NCBI RefSeq assembly: GCF_030817415.1
Contig: NZ_JAUSZI010000002.1
Coordinates: 3,534,001-3,598,000 of the forward strand
Source of the DNA: Streptomyces umbrinus
GTDB taxonomy: Bacteria; Actinomycetota; Actinomycetes; Streptomycetales; Streptomycetaceae
Length of the DNA stretch: 64,000 nt
Direction: 5' to 3'
Below are positions 5,366 to 30,177 of the stretch, one piece after another (the first letter of the stretch is position 1; every line of letters starts with the position of its first letter). The notes beneath the pieces were generated by a model. It saw nothing but the letters and a program-made list of their open reading frames with translations, had not been told where the DNA came from and made no database searches. Position numbers and translations under genes: made by a program.

Positions 5366-5373
5366 GACATGCC

Positions 5374-24217: not shown

Positions 24218-25384
24218 TCAGGCCACCGCAGGTACCGCAACCGGCGGAACCGGCCCCACATACCGCGCCGCAGGCCGGATGATCTTCGGGTCTTCCGCCT
24301 GCTCCAGGATGTTGGCGCTCCAGCCGACGACGCGGGCCGCGGCGAACGTAGGCGTGAACATCTCGCGTGGCAGGCCGCAGAGTTCCATGACGACGCCGGC
24401 GTAGAACTCCACGTTCGTGTGGAGTTCCCGGCCGGGCTTGAGCTCCGCGAGGATCGCTTCCACCTGGCGTTCGACCTCGACCGCGAAGTCGGCCAACGGG
24501 CCGCCGAATTGCTGGGCGATGCCGCGGAGCATGCGCGAGCGGGGGTCCTCGGTGCGGTAGACGGGGTGGCCGAAGCCCATGATGCGGTCGCCGGCGAGGA
24601 CTCGTTCGCGGATCCAGGGGTCGATGCGGTCGGGAGTCCCGATCGCGTCGAGGGTGTCCAGGGCCCGGCTCGGGGCGCCCCCGTGAAGCGGACCGGAGAG
24701 GGCTCCCACCGCGCCGACGAGACAGGCCACCACGTCCGCCCCCGTCGACGTGATCACCCGAGCCGTGAATGTTGATGCATTGAATCCATGATCAATGGTC
24801 GAGATCAGGTACTGCTCGACCGCCCGCGCCCGCCCCGGATCCGGTTCCGAACCCGTCAGCATGTAGAGGTAGTTCGCGGCGTAGGGCAGATCGTCACGCG
24901 GCTCGATCGGTTCGAGGCCCTGCCCGAGCCGGTGGAGTGCCGTCAGCAACGTCGGCACGGCCGCGGACGCGGCGAGCGCGTCCGCTCGTCGCTGCTCGGC
25001 GTCAATGTCGTACACCGGCCGGAACCCCCGCACCGCGCCGAGCAGCGACAACGCGGTCCGCATCCCGGCAAGCGCCCCCGACCTCCCACTGGCCGCCGCG
25101 ATCGCGGGCAGTACGGCCCGCACTTCCACCGGCAGCCGCCGCAGTTCCGCCGTCCGCGCGGCAAAGGCGGAACGCTGTGCCGCGTCCGGCAGTTCACCGT
25201 GTACCAGCAGATGCCACACGTCCTCGAAACCACGGGTCCGTGCGAGCTCGACGGCCGAGTACTGGCGGTAGTGGTAGAACCCCTCGACCCCCCTGACGTC
25301 ACCCAGCACGGTGTCGGTGACGACGACGCCCGCGAGTCCTCGCGGTATGTCGACAGAGGCGGTCGCGGCCCGGTTGATCGGCAT
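24218..25384 (-). CDS. Citrate synthase-like protein
   Basis: A 388-residue member of the citrate/2-methylcitrate synthase family, which condenses acetyl-CoA or propionyl-CoA with oxaloacetate. The two catalytic histidine regions are present (SGPLHGGAPSRALD; RIMGFGHPVYRTEDPRSRML). The third catalytic position, normally Asp in NVDFYSG, is Glu here (NVEFYAG, codon at 24407-24409). The N-terminal segment GLAGVVVTDTVLGDVRGVEGFYHYRQYSAVELA is typical of short bacterial enzymes. It is divergent from a second citrate-synthase-like gene with an HTH domain across a 98-bp AT-rich spacer. Whether it is a true citrate synthase, a methylcitrate synthase or a partner chain is open. Confidence 0.88.
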   Translation of the reverse strand: MPINRAATASVDIPRGLAGVVVTDTVLGDVRGVEGFYHYRQYSAVELARTRGFEDVWHLLVHGELPDAAQRSAFAARTAELRRLPVEVRAVLPAIAAASGRSGALAGMRTALSLLGAVRGFRPVYDIDAEQRRADALAASAAVPTLLTALHRLGQGLEPIEPRDDLPYAANYLYMLTGSEPDPGRARAVEQYLISTIDHGFNASTFTARVITSTGADVVACLVGAVGALSGPLHGGAPSRALDTLDAIGTPDRIDPWIRERVLAGDRIMGFGHPVYRTEDPRSRMLRGIAQQFGGPLADFAVEVERQVEAILAELKPGRELHTNVEFYAGVVMELCGLPREMFTPTFAAARVVGWSANILEQAEDPKIIRPAARYVGPVPPVAVPAVA

Positions 25385-25418
25385 GTTTCCTCCCTGGACT
25401 TGATTTGACTGTCCATGC

Positions 25419-25456
25419 TTGACTCAATTCCTGTCAATATTGATTGAATCAATATT
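25419..25456. promoter_or_regulatory. Palindromic operator candidate between divergent citrate-synthase-like genes
   Basis: At 25436-25456 there is a perfect inverted repeat with 10-bp arms (AATATTGATT and AATCAATATT) around one central G. The smaller TTGACTCAA lies at 25419-25427. Both use the TTGA/TCAA half-site. The block is strikingly AT-rich for this genome and sits in a 98-bp spacer, 26 bp from one start and 51 bp from the other. An obvious candidate binder is the HTH domain of the gene at 25483, which is inference. Confidence 0.75.
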
Positions 25457-25482
25457 CAGACTGCACAGATACGGTGATACTC

Positions 25483-26742
25483 ATGACGGATCAAGAACTG
25501 GCTCTCGCGCACGAAGCGCGGCGGATCAGCACCAAGGAAGCCGCCGAACTGCTCGGAGTGAAGCCCGAGACGGTCTACGCGTATGTGAGCCGCGGCCAGC
25601 TCAGCAGCCGCCGCAGCACGGGCGGTCGGGGCAGCACCTTCGACGCCAAGGAGGTGGAGGCGCTCGCACGTCGCAGCAGGCGCGAACCGGCCGAGGGTTC
25701 ACCGGCCGCCGGCACGCTCTCCGTACGCACCCGGATCACCTTGATCGACAAGGACCGGTACTACTTCCGAGGGGTAGACGCGACCGAACTGGCCGCGCGC
25801 CACTCCTACGAAGAGGTCGCCGAGTGGCTGTGGACGGGCGTCCTGCGCCCGGGCGCCACATTCACGGCACCGGAGGCGTCCGTCGCCGTCGCCCGCCGCG
25901 CCATCGACGCACTGCCCGAGCACACCGGCCCGACCGACCGGCTCCGCGTCGCGGCCATCGCCGCGGCGACCGCCGACCCGCTGCGCTTCGACCTCTCCGA
26001 ACAGACCGTGCTCGGCACGGCCCGCACGCTGATCCCCACGCTCGTCGCCGCCCTGCCCCCCAAGAGTCACGACCATCGGGACGCCGGCTCGCTCGCGCAC
26101 CGCCTGTGGGCCAGGCTCAGCGGCCGCGAACCCGATGAGGCGTCTCTGCGCGCCCTGGACACCGCACTCGCGCTGCTCGTCGACCACGACCTGGCCGCCT
26201 CGACGCTGGCCGTCCGGGTCGCCGCCTCGGCCCGCGCCCACGCGTACGCCGCTGTCTCGGCGGGCCTCGGCGTCCTCGAAGGCCCGTTGCACGGAGCGGC
26301 CAGCGGCCTGGCGCACCGGATGCTGCTCGACGTCCTGGACCGGGGCACGGCGGCCCCGGTGGTCGCGGACGAGCTCCGGGCCGGGCGCCGTGTCCCCGGG
26401 CTGGGTCACCGCATCTACCCCGGCGAGGACCCACGTGCGCGCGTGCTGTTCGGCCTCCTGGAGGACGTTCCCCGCGCCGCCCCCGCCTTGGCCGCGGCCC
26501 GCGACGTCGTGGACACCACGGCCCGCCACGTGCCCCTGCACGCCAACGTCGACCTGGCCCTCGCCGTCCTCACTGCCTCGTCCGGCATGCACGCCTCGGC
26601 GGGCGAGACGATCTTCGCCGTGGCCCGCACTGCCGGCTGGATCGCCCATGTGCTGGAGGAGTACGACGAGGCCCCGCTGCGCATGCGCCCGAGCGGACAC
26701 TACGTAGGCCCACGGCCCCCTCAGCCACTTCCGGAGCAGTGA
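25483..26742 (+). CDS. Citrate synthase-like protein with N-terminal helix-turn-helix domain
   Basis: A 419-residue fusion. Residues about 12-60 form a MerR/excisionase-type HTH (RISTKEAAELLGVKPETVYAYVSRGQLSSRR, then GGRGSTFDAKEVEALARRS). From about residue 75 it is a citrate synthase (TRITLIDKDRYYFRGVDATELAARHSYEEVAEWLW) with both catalytic His regions (EGPLHGAASG; RVPGLGHRIYPGEDPRARVL) and the expected Asp in HANVDLALAVL. The ATG at 25483 gives the complete HTH; an in-frame start at 25444 would lie in the operator palindrome. A DNA-binding head on a central-metabolism enzyme suggests a metabolite-responsive regulator, perhaps controlling its divergent neighbour. Catalysis is plausible but untested. 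Confidence 0.88.
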   Translation: MTDQELALAHEARRISTKEAAELLGVKPETVYAYVSRGQLSSRRSTGGRGSTFDAKEVEALARRSRREPAEGSPAAGTLSVRTRITLIDKDRYYFRGVDATELAARHSYEEVAEWLWTGVLRPGATFTAPEASVAVARRAIDALPEHTGPTDRLRVAAIAAATADPLRFDLSEQTVLGTARTLIPTLVAALPPKSHDHRDAGSLAHRLWARLSGREPDEASLRALDTALALLVDHDLAASTLAVRVAASARAHAYAAVSAGLGVLEGPLHGAASGLAHRMLLDVLDRGTAAPVVADELRAGRRVPGLGHRIYPGEDPRARVLFGLLEDVPRAAPALAAARDVVDTTARHVPLHANVDLALAVLTASSGMHASAGETIFAVARTAGWIAHVLEEYDEAPLRMRPSGHYVGPRPPQPLPEQ

Positions 26743-27817: not shown

Positions 27818-29500
27818 ATGAGCCCCACTCCCCCTCGACGACTCCGCCTGGGCATGCCGAAGCGGATGTTCTCGCAGGTGCTGCTGATGCAGGTGGCGAT
27901 CGCCGCCGGAGTCGCCGTCCTCGCGACCGGGCTGTTCCTCGCTCCGCTGAGCGAACAGCTGGACGACCAGGCGATGCGCCGCGCTCTCGCGATCGCGCAG
28001 ACCACGGCGGCGCAGCCGAGGCTCGCCGAGGAGCTGAAGTCCACTCCGGCCTCGGCCGACGGGCCCGTGCAGACCGAGGCGGAGCGGATCCGCAAGGCCA
28101 GCGGGGCCGAGTACGTCGTCGTGATGGACGTCCACGGCACCCGCTGGTCGCACACCAACCCCGCCGAGATCGGCGGGCACGTCTCGACCGATCCCAGGTC
28201 CGCACTGTCCGGCCGGGAGGTCATGGAGATCGACAGCGGCACCCTGGGCCGCTCGGCGCGCGGCAAGGTGCCGTTGCGCGACACCGACGGCCGCATCGTC
28301 GGCGCGGTGTCGGTCGGTATCGAGTACGACAGCGTGCGCGCCCGCCTCATCCACGCCATCCCCGGGCTCTTCGCGTACGCCGGAGGAGCCCTGGCCGTCG
28401 GTGCGCTGGCCGCCTATCTGATCTCACGACGGGTGCAACGGCAGACCCGTGACCTGGCCTTCTCGGACATCGCCGGGCTCCTGGCGGAGCGCGAGGCGAT
28501 GCTGCACGGCATCAGGGAGGGCGTCGTCGCGCTGGACCGCGAGGGCAGGATCCGCCTCCTCAACGACGAGGCCCGGCGCCTGCTGGGAATCGGCGACGAG
28601 GCCGTCGGGCAGCCCCTCGACGCAGCGCTCGGAGAAGGCCGTACGGCCGATGTGCTGGCCGGGACCGTCACCGGAACCGATCTGCTCACCGTCCGCGGCC
28701 AGCGTGTCCTGGTCGCCAACCGCATGCCCACCGACGACGGCGGTGCCGTGGCCACCCTGCGCGACCGCACCGAACTGGAGCAACTGGGCCGCGAACTCGA
28801 CTCGACCCGCGGCCTGATCGACGCCCTGCGCGCCCAGGACCACGAGCACGCCAACCGCATGCACACGCTGCTCGGGCTGCTGGAACTGGAGATGTACGAC
28901 GACGCCGTGGAGTTCGTCGGCGAGGTGGTCGGTGACCACAGGGCGACCGCGGAACAGGTCACGGAGAAGATCCATGACCCGTTGCTCGCTGCCCTCCTGG
29001 TGGGCAAGGCCACCGTCGCGGCCGAGCGCGGAGTGGCCCTGTGGATCTCGGACACGACGCTGTTCCCGGACCGGCTGATCGACCCGAGGGGGCTGGTCAC
29101 GATCGTCGGGAACCTCGTCGACAACGCACTCGACGCCGCCGCGGGCACCCTCCACGCGCGCGTGGAGGTCGAATTGCGCGCGGAAGGGCGTACAGCCGTC
29201 CTCAGGGTGCGAGACACAGGGCCTGGAATTCCTGCCGAACAGCGTGAGTTGATCTTCACGGACGGGTGGTCGACCAAGAAGCCCCCGGCCCACCGAAAGC
29301 GCGGAATCGGCCTCTCCCTGGTGCGCAGGCTCGCCGAGCGGCAAGGTGGCAGCGCCCGGGTCTCGGAGGCGGACGGCGGAGGCGCCGAGTTCACCATCGT
29401 GCTGCCGGAGGCACTGGCGGAGCCTGGACTCGCACCGGACCCCGCGCCCGGCCTCATGCTGGAGAGCGCCGCCACGACCGTCAACGAGGAGTCGCGATGA
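27818..29500 (+). CDS. Sensor histidine kinase, DcuS/CitA family
   Basis: A 560-residue membrane sensor. One transmembrane helix near residues 19-45 (LLMQVAIAAGVAVLATGLFLAPL) and a second near 190-210 (GLFAYAGGALAVGALAAYLIS) flank an extracytoplasmic sensor domain of about 140 residues (ASGAEYVVVMDVHGTRWSHTNP) of the PDC type that binds C4-dicarboxylates or citrate in relatives. A cytoplasmic PAS domain follows (VVALDREGRIRLLNDEARRLLG), then the H-box QDHEHANRMHTLLGLLEL and an HATPase domain (GNLVDNALDAA; DTGPGIP; GIGLSLVRRL). It overlaps its response-regulator gene by 4 bp (ATGA). The adjacent solute-binding lipoprotein hints at a transported ligand; the ligand is unknown. Confidence 0.92.
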   Translation: MSPTPPRRLRLGMPKRMFSQVLLMQVAIAAGVAVLATGLFLAPLSEQLDDQAMRRALAIAQTTAAQPRLAEELKSTPASADGPVQTEAERIRKASGAEYVVVMDVHGTRWSHTNPAEIGGHVSTDPRSALSGREVMEIDSGTLGRSARGKVPLRDTDGRIVGAVSVGIEYDSVRARLIHAIPGLFAYAGGALAVGALAAYLISRRVQRQTRDLAFSDIAGLLAEREAMLHGIREGVVALDREGRIRLLNDEARRLLGIGDEAVGQPLDAALGEGRTADVLAGTVTGTDLLTVRGQRVLVANRMPTDDGGAVATLRDRTELEQLGRELDSTRGLIDALRAQDHEHANRMHTLLGLLELEMYDDAVEFVGEVVGDHRATAEQVTEKIHDPLLAALLVGKATVAAERGVALWISDTTLFPDRLIDPRGLVTIVGNLVDNALDAAAGTLHARVEVELRAEGRTAVLRVRDTGPGIPAEQRELIFTDGWSTKKPPAHRKRGIGLSLVRRLAERQGGSARVSEADGGGAEFTIVLPEALAEPGLAPDPAPGLMLESAATTVNEESR

Positions 29501-30177
29501 TCGAGGTACTGGTCGTGGACGACGACATCCGGGTCGCCCGGGTCAACGCCGCCTACGTGGAGAAGGTCGCAGGCTTCCATGTCGCGGGCGAGGCGCACTC
29601 CGCGGCGGAGGCGCTGCGGCAGTTGGAGGCTCTGCCCCGGCTGGACCTCGTACTTCTCGACCACTATCTGCCGGACGAGACGGGTCTCGCGGTCGTCCAG
29701 GAGATGCGCAGACGCGGCCATCAGGCCGACGTGATCATGGTGACCGCGGCCCGTGACGTCTCCACGGTCCAGGCGGCGATGCGACAGGGCGCGCTCCAGT
29801 ACCTGGTGAAACCGTTCGCCTTCGCCGGACTGCGCGCCAAGCTGGAGGCGTACGCGGACCTGCGCCGCACTCTCGACGGCGGCGGCGAGGCCGAACAGGC
29901 CGAGGTCGACCGGATCTTCGGCGCCCTGTCCGCCGGCTCGGAGCCCGGTCTGCCCAAAGGGCACTCCCCCACCACCGCGGAGGCCGTACGCCGGGCCCTG
30001 GTGACCGCGGAAGGCCCTCTGTCGGCCCAGGAGATCGCCGACCGGACCGGGCTCAGCCGCCAGACCGCCCAGCGGTATCTGAAGCTCCTGGAGCGCACGG
30101 GACGGGCCACGCTGACCCTGAAGTACGGAGACGCGGGCCGCCCGGAGCACCGTTACGTCTGGGCGACCCGCGCCTGA
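29497..30177 (+). CDS. Response regulator, DcuR/CitB family
   Basis: A 226-residue partner of the kinase encoded immediately upstream. The receiver domain (residues 1-120) has the acidic pocket VVDDD, phospho-acceptor Asp55 in LVLLDHYLPD, Thr in MVTAARD and Lys in LVKPF. The C-terminal domain has an HTH of the DcuR/CitB kind (LSAQEIADRTGLSRQTAQRYLKLLERTGR) and ends RPEHRYVW. The ATG at 29497 overlaps the kinase stop. A close paralogue lies 2.1 kb downstream at 32278-32970 with an almost identical architecture but no kinase of its own. Targets probably include the transporter genes between them. Confidence 0.93.
   Translation: MIEVLVVDDDIRVARVNAAYVEKVAGFHVAGEAHSAAEALRQLEALPRLDLVLLDHYLPDETGLAVVQEMRRRGHQADVIMVTAARDVSTVQAAMRQGALQYLVKPFAFAGLRAKLEAYADLRRTLDGGGEAEQAEVDRIFGALSAGSEPGLPKGHSPTTAEAVRRALVTAEGPLSAQEIADRTGLSRQTAQRYLKLLERTGRATLTLKYGDAGRPEHRYVWATRA

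Follow-up and report, generated by a model that had tools for sequence, protein, structure and literature searches.

What is a citrate synthase fold doing behind a DNA-binding head? The question is raised by a divergent gene pair in a 64,000-nt stretch of the Streptomyces umbrinus genome (NCBI RefSeq assembly GCF_030817415.1, contig NZ_JAUSZI010000002.1, positions 3,534,001 to 3,598,000), hereafter the window. On its minus strand, 25384..24218 encode a plain CitA-like citrate synthase (CS) of 388 aa, matched by PF00285 over its full length and carrying TNVEFYAG. Across a spacer of 98 nt (25385-25482), the plus-strand gene at 25483..26742 encodes a 419-aa helix-turn-helix (HTH)-citrate-synthase fusion (HTH-CS), which domain search, tree and structure model lead us to propose as a transcription regulator. 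Judged from sequence comparison, HTH-CS is quite likely a one-component regulator whose sensor derives from a citrate synthase and which controls the CitA-like CS and itself. It is also likely to represent a cross-phylum regulator family (Actinomycetota, Deinococcota, Alpha-, Beta- and Gammaproteobacteria) with one operator, in which an enzyme was turned into a carboxylate sensor and one clade, beside catabolic genes for ring-hydroxylating and thiamine-diphosphate enzymes, is probably catalytically dead.

Domain searches assigned residues 16-64 of HTH-CS (25528..25674, plus strand), which include ETVYAYVSRG, to a MerR-type N-terminal winged HTH (HTH_17/MerR), with PF00376 and PF13411 both above cut-off, and residues 76-403 (25708..26691, plus strand) to Citrate_synt. 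In the latter, His270, His309, Asp357 (within ANVDL) and Arg318/382/402 are intact, as the initial annotation had claimed in describing an HTH joined to a citrate synthase with its catalytic residues preserved. We take His270 and Asp357 to be the equivalents of pig H274 (His274) and D375, and the arginines to be those of pig R329, R401 and R421. PF00285 scored 223 bits for HTH-CS and 360 bits for the partner CS (cut-off 27); the window genome (12.4 Mb), whose sampled relatives are streptomycetes, contains four PF00285 genes. An AlphaFold2 monomer model of HTH-CS (mean predicted local distance difference test score 87.2) displayed the helices and strands of a winged HTH and the CS fold, with a low-confidence linker at 67-77, and Foldseek ranked citrate synthases at the top (1iom, E 1.2e-16). 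All 60 matches listed among solved structures start at residue 75 or beyond, and none of those listed spans the head. The start of HTH-CS is backed by a conserved -10-like box just 5′ of the ATG in aligned spacers. A MerR-style coiled-coil dimerization helix after the HTH was not seen in the model, in which helix 55-66 is followed by the linker, and the BldC model NF033787 gave 20.5 bits, under its cut-off of 77. Assignments to MerR and to BldC were both dropped, and since their defining features failed or stayed open, the family is named after neither.

The initial annotation had pointed to a 21-bp palindrome between the two genes, and this is exact: AATATTGATT-G-AATCAATATT occupies 25436-25456 with arms that are 100% complementary. 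By itself, the palindrome is weak evidence. Such perfect inverted repeats, with arms of at least 10, are not rare window-wide (eight in the 64 kb vs zero to three per shuffled window in 20 shuffles), but shuffles of the spacer produced one in just 2 of 5,000 cases. It is more than chance because it is conserved across spacers. Its outer bases differ between species, and the site is more accurately given as TCAAYRTTGA with a third TCAAY half-site than as a 21-bp palindrome. On the basis of the palindrome search and conservation, we predict an operator core, TCAATATTGATTGAATCAAT, at 25434..25453 on the plus strand, consisting of the symmetric TCAANNTTGA and a third half-site, TCAAT, at 15-bp spacing.

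Orthologous spacers in Streptomyces align around TGTCAAYRTTGAYnnnnTCAAY (28 spacers). A larger count used 80 named genome-contig loci, the best 80 of a longer list, nearly all of them named Streptomyces and partly overlapping with the 61-genome (G-labelled) set considered below. A CS more than 50% identical is divergent from HTH-CS in 74 of these loci, has another orientation in one and was not found within 3 kb in five. The forward strands of the 74 divergent spacers contain TCAAYRTTGAY-N1..9-TCAAY in 73 cases, vs 0 of 14,800 dinucleotide shuffles, so that the palindrome conservation in other Streptomyces that had been named as a check was indeed found. Half-site spacing is fixed, with 71 of the 73 matches exactly 20 nt long (gap 4), and the single miss (L144) has the same half-sites wider apart.

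The operator also co-occurs with the protein. Among the 61 genus genomes, HTH-CS was called present at E about 1e-100 or better, which yielded 36 genomes. In a cross-table compiled by hand (G019 being split in two pieces), the operator pattern (gap 2-9) was found in 33 of the 36 genomes with HTH-CS and in 0 of the 25 without it, and a reversed control pattern matched once in all 61. Promoter regions of the CS/HTH-CS pair account for 35 of the 38 listed sites, with three elsewhere. Two of the three misses (G031, G047) have looser operator versions, and the third (G013) has none. Conservation and co-occurrence together support the suggestion, made from the S. umbrinus sequence alone, that HTH-CS reads the palindrome and may set expression of the pair.

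Loci where CS had moved or gone served as natural REARRANGEMENTS and were compared for operator retention. In all three cases with CS present yet not divergent from HTH-CS, the operator stays upstream of CS. Streptomyces aurantiacus (L074) has CS and HTH-CS in tandem, each with its own copy of the operator region. The HTH-CS copy keeps the palindrome core but differs by one base in the first half-site, which serves as the -35 of CS as well. In Streptomyces fuscichromogenes, CS lies about 4 kb off with the operator still upstream, and the HTH-CS start also has a site. In Streptomyces sp. A108, CS is on another contig, again with the operator upstream, and the HTH-CS start is without a site. What the computation directly shows is the domain structure, the single-branch grouping of the family members sampled, conservation of the operator, its co-occurrence with HTH-CS and its movement with target genes.

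A search of 296 genomes of the phylum returned proteins matching the query from the HTH onward in several other families. At 17 of 19 distant loci of the phylum, TCAAYRTTGA occurs at -250..+20 of the HTH-CS match (misses, L063 and L067; L054, an incomplete gene, was left out of this count); elsewhere in the 74,397 nt of such loci it occurs once. Spacing of the third half-site, read by eye outside Streptomyces, is 15 bp in Streptomyces, Embleya, L056 and L065 and ~18-19 bp in most others. In a plasmid collection, HTH-CS was detected in Embleya, Nonomuraea, Deinococcus and Alpha-, Beta- and Gammaproteobacteria, the last represented by Ewingella. Here, TCAANNTTGA is present at -200..+20 of HTH-CS in 20 of 25 loci, 18 of the 25 with the third half-site, and the remaining 155,714 nt of these loci contain no copy. 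For this count, the start of L155 was set by hand; L176 (Acidovorax; a gene in two overlapping pieces with a transposase gene upstream) was left out of both the residue and the plasmid-site counts. Because near-relatives are included (L158/L159/L160/L162/L163, L164/L165, L168/L172 and L169/L170), independent cases number fewer than 25.

Genes divergent from HTH-CS in these loci vary widely. They include citrate synthase, pyruvate carboxyltransferase or homocitrate-synthase-like genes, a CoA transferase, a 2-hydroxyacid dehydrogenase with FAA hydrolase and SDR genes, a transporter together with a 2-hydroxyacid dehydrogenase, a ring-hydroxylating dioxygenase, a cupin with an HpaI-type aldolase and a thiamine-pyrophosphate enzyme. 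The initial annotation had envisaged a self-contained switch of one CS pair; instead, the pair belongs to a cross-phylum family whose neighbor is often not a CS. HTH-CS is annotated, where annotation is given, as citrate synthase, citrate/2-methylcitrate synthase or citrate synthase family protein. In Roseomonas relatives (L168, L172), a DUF2332 gene is divergent from HTH-CS with the operator near the HTH-CS start, a pairing that provides a functional lead for DUF2332.

Two proteobacterial genomes permitted a prediction. An SDR-MFS-VOC gene group ends with HTH-CS in both Paraburkholderia sprentiae and Caballeronia sp. SBC1, and the HTH-CS start itself is without a site. If HTH-CS is the binder, a site is expected at the head of this group. 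Both genomes contain it there as predicted, TCAAYRTTGA with TCAAC 19 bp off in the divergent spacer between the SDR and a D-glycerate dehydrogenase gene, and the same spacer holds a second operator copy with one mismatch. As the loci, which account for two of the misses in the plasmid count, are closely related, this is one test, not two. An extra TCAACGTTGA in the Caballeronia locus (L205, ~500), flanked by a LysR gene and an MFS transporter gene, may mark a second target or be due to chance. Searching viral contigs with a proteobacterial HTH-CS member confirmed no relative, and none of 11 matching phage records (five of them listed) covers 80% of the query. Palindrome matches at 11 viral-contig loci may be AT-rich chance.

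Does the fusion still work as an enzyme, or has it become a sensor? We built a quick-search tree of the CS domain alone, with a limited sample of plain CS and no bootstrap, in which a single branch parted 41 HTH-CS from 19 plain CS (Shimodaira-Hasegawa-like approximate likelihood ratio test (SH-aLRT) 100). Among the 41, His270 and Asp357 are each intact in 36. In one clade (L156, L175, L177, L178 and L179; support 100), the His270 equivalent is replaced in all five members and Asp357 is Glu in three and Phe or Ala in two; L175 additionally is without His309. All five keep the three carboxylate-binding arginines (R329, R401, R421) and the HTH. The lost His is a stronger sign than the changed Asp because Glu is normal in plain CitA-like CS. 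Genes neighboring this clade encode FAA hydrolase, ferredoxin/aldehyde dehydrogenase, ring-hydroxylating dioxygenase, cupin/aldolase and thiamine-pyrophosphate enzymes.

A further position separates the fusions from the enzymes. At pig R324, which we take to be a basic residue contacting coenzyme A (CoA), all 19 plain CS have R or K, while 33 of the 41 sampled HTH-CS, including that of the window, have Pro. Within Streptomyces, 8 of 80 HTH-CS have R or K at this position, vs R in 71 of 72 aligned partner CS. CoA sensing thus seems less likely than sensing of an oxaloacetate- or citrate-type compound, since the CoA-contact residue is mostly lost and carboxylate-binding residues are kept. The simplest reading of these sequences is that HTH-CS is a sensor that still grips a carboxylate and would handle CoA differently. 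Members with intact residues may nevertheless turn over substrate. One Streptomyces genome (G003) also encodes a second, distant HTH-CS paralogue (L206 3725-5017, minus strand), in which the segment has changed to YAYTSRG; a plain CS lies close by in the same orientation.

The partner CS scores above the cut-off of NF009005 for CitA-like citrate synthases (343.8 bits vs 332), and its best solved-structure match is Bacillus subtilis citrate synthase 1 (CitA), 2c6x. The Glu that the initial annotation had noticed at the catalytic Asp position is present (NVEFYAG; 25384..24218, minus strand). Its proposed role as a special component of the switch, however, is not supported, and we rejected it: 2c6x shows TNVEFYA at the same place, and Glu is shared by 18 of the 19 plain CS examined, including every HTH-CS partner in that sample. 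Another CS of the window genome likewise has Glu (TNVEFW), as do all 72 aligned Streptomyces partners (75 were found, three without alignment at the Asp/Glu column). The change from Asp to Glu is, as judged from these alignments, an ordinary trait of the CitA-like subfamily.

How might control work? The winged HTH of HTH-CS would bind TCAANNTTGA and the neighboring TCAAY half-site, and the CS domain, inherited from an enzyme, would be the sensor. Known citrate synthases are dimeric. An oxaloacetate- or citrate-type carboxylic metabolite in the old active site could close the cleft, a movement that would shift the HTH pair and alter DNA affinity. HTH-CS would thereby control the divergent CitA-like CS, probably as a repressor, and itself. 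We infer the repressor role because the operator covers a TTGACA -35-like box of CS. DNA binding, the ligand, the sign of control and any turnover of substrate by the sensor are accordingly put here as predictions.

Promoter boxes were read from sequence and conservation. For CS, we propose a -35 box, TTGACA, at 25437-25432 on the minus strand, which the predicted operator overlaps, and a -10 box, TGGACA, at 25415-25410 on the same strand (TAGACA in some relatives; aligned by eye and not seen in every spacer), with a 16-nt gap. For HTH-CS, a conserved candidate -10 box, TACGGT, lies at 25470-25475 on the plus strand; counted by eye, 23 of 28 aligned spacers have TACGGT at this place, and the other five have TAGGGT or TAGGCT. 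Because it ends 7 nt 5′ of the ATG, a leaderless HTH-CS mRNA is predicted. A strict sigma-70 consensus scan called no promoter, so the boxes rest on conservation judged by eye. MerR-family operators sit between the -35 and -10 elements of promoters with 19-20-bp spacing.

By synteny, we take the partner CS as the counterpart of Streptomyces coelicolor SCO5832 and the window HTH-CS as that of SCO5831 (PMC9739823, PMC12323332), both called putative citrate synthases (PMC12323332). Beside SCO5831 lie SCO5830, which is sucrase/ferredoxin-like, and a two-component pair, SCO5829/5828; this pair has been suggested to repress SCO5831 under phosphate limitation in Streptomyces lividans (PMC9739823). 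Genes in the window 3′ of HTH-CS follow the S. coelicolor order, with a Suc_Fer-like gene, an sCache sensor kinase and a response regulator. MtrA shifted a probe from the SCO5831-SCO5832 intergenic region carrying TTGACTTAACTGTCCA, a predicted MtrA site listed at -16 of SCO5832, and both genes (citA3, citA4) were higher in an mtrA mutant at late times (PMC12323332). The window contains a second conserved block, TTGATTTGACTGTCCATGCTTGAC, at 25400..25423, whose first 16 nt (25400-25415) are identical to that site at 14 of 16 positions and have the same -16 position (PMC12323332).

Several observations weigh against HTH-CS as a dedicated regulator of the pair. The catalytic His, His and Asp are intact in 80 of 80 Streptomyces HTH-CS. 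HTH-CS is evidently not the sole regulator of the spacer, since MtrA shifts the S. coelicolor probe (PMC12323332). Exact sites are missing from the HTH-CS spacer copies of L127 and L074. Among the plasmid loci, the HTH-CS start has just an imperfect site in L160 and L175 and lacks any site in L164, L165 and L177; in L164, L165 and L176, HTH-CS is not divergent from its neighbor. The main fact against a pure CS-regulator view is that HTH-CS is kept without CS. Five of the nine genomes examined (G013, G251, G354, G356 and G357) yielded no CS orthologue (best match 43-48%); four of the five are without the operator pattern, and one keeps the exact operator (L099). HTH-CS is retained in all five; its HTH is intact, matching the window HTH at 44-47 of 55 residues, and so are its catalytic residues. 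G013 and G251 are listed as complete; CS absence is less sure in G354, G356 and G357, for which no completeness is given. The operator thus appears mostly to go when its CS target goes, while HTH-CS stays, and some further role of HTH-CS is therefore to be expected where CS was lost.

A rival reading makes HTH-CS first and foremost an active citrate or methylcitrate synthase; as a trigger enzyme it would also bind its own operator, with regulation secondary. The intact residues and the five CS-less genomes speak for this, as does the listing of SCO5831 among detected TCA-cycle proteins (PMC8981147). We nevertheless consider it unlikely: most HTH-CS have lost the presumed basic CoA-contact position, the five-member clade has shed the catalytic His and Asp and kept the HTH, and neighbors in other phyla are often not citrate genes. 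A different reading assigns the spacer elements to another regulator, MtrA or a BldC-like protein, and leaves the HTH of HTH-CS to do something else. Binding of MtrA to the SCO5831-SCO5832 probe and the raised expression of both genes in the mutant fit it (PMC12323332), and BldC binds direct repeats with an AT-rich element (PMC5859096). This is improbable given that the predicted MtrA site is the left block and not the TCAA/TTGA operator, that none of the 25 genomes without HTH-CS has the operator pattern and that this pattern recurs beside HTH-CS in other phyla and in front of an HTH-CS gene group. Least credible is a conserved promoter or AT-rich sequence without any dedicated binder; the palindrome does overlap a likely -35 box and has long-armed company elsewhere in the window, but exact TTGATTNAATCAA occurs once in the 12.4-Mb genome, half-site spacing is conserved and the operator recurs across phyla. 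We thus retain the view of HTH-CS as a regulator with an enzyme-derived sensor.

Enzyme folds with a DNA-binding head are exemplified by BirA, PutA and NadR, whose folds and ligands are other than those of HTH-CS. CitR is a LysR-type regulator divergent from B. subtilis citA, an arrangement like that of the window pair, with a CitA that has the same Glu; in the window, however, the proposed regulator itself has the citrate synthase fold. The ligand of BzdR is benzoyl-CoA. Enzyme folds turned regulators are already known from BzdR/BoxR, in which an XRE-type HTH is joined to a metabolic-enzyme-like, shikimate-kinase-like domain; BzdR controls adjacent catabolic genes (PMC6449761). Both the HTH class and the enzyme fold differ from those of HTH-CS. 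BldC resembles HTH-CS in its MerR-like winged HTH, with weak similarity, and in the AT-rich element of its sites, but has 68 residues, is without an effector-binding domain and uses head-to-tail direct repeats (PMC5859096), whereas HTH-CS sites contain the symmetric TCAANNTTGA. The MtrA study covers the corresponding intergenic region of S. coelicolor, and its accessible text mentions neither the HTH nor a TCAA/TTGA operator (PMC12323332). In open-licence literature, we found no description of a citrate-synthase-fold regulator, although one may be in print elsewhere.

If our reading is right, some proteins annotated or modelled as citrate synthases would be transcription regulators whose targets could be predicted from a readable operator. 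This would help to explain the several ‘citrate synthases’ per Streptomyces. The family would offer a series from an enzyme-like to a probably dead-enzyme sensor, and a metabolite-reading step of central carbon control would become directly testable in S. coelicolor (SCO5831/SCO5832). Two features of the window lie outside the pair. The sCache sensor kinase and response regulator genes that follow it are at 27818-30174 (plus strand). Long perfect G+C-rich inverted repeats are found at 5373, 14642 and 37715 (arms 18, 15 and 12), perhaps representing terminators or structured elements.

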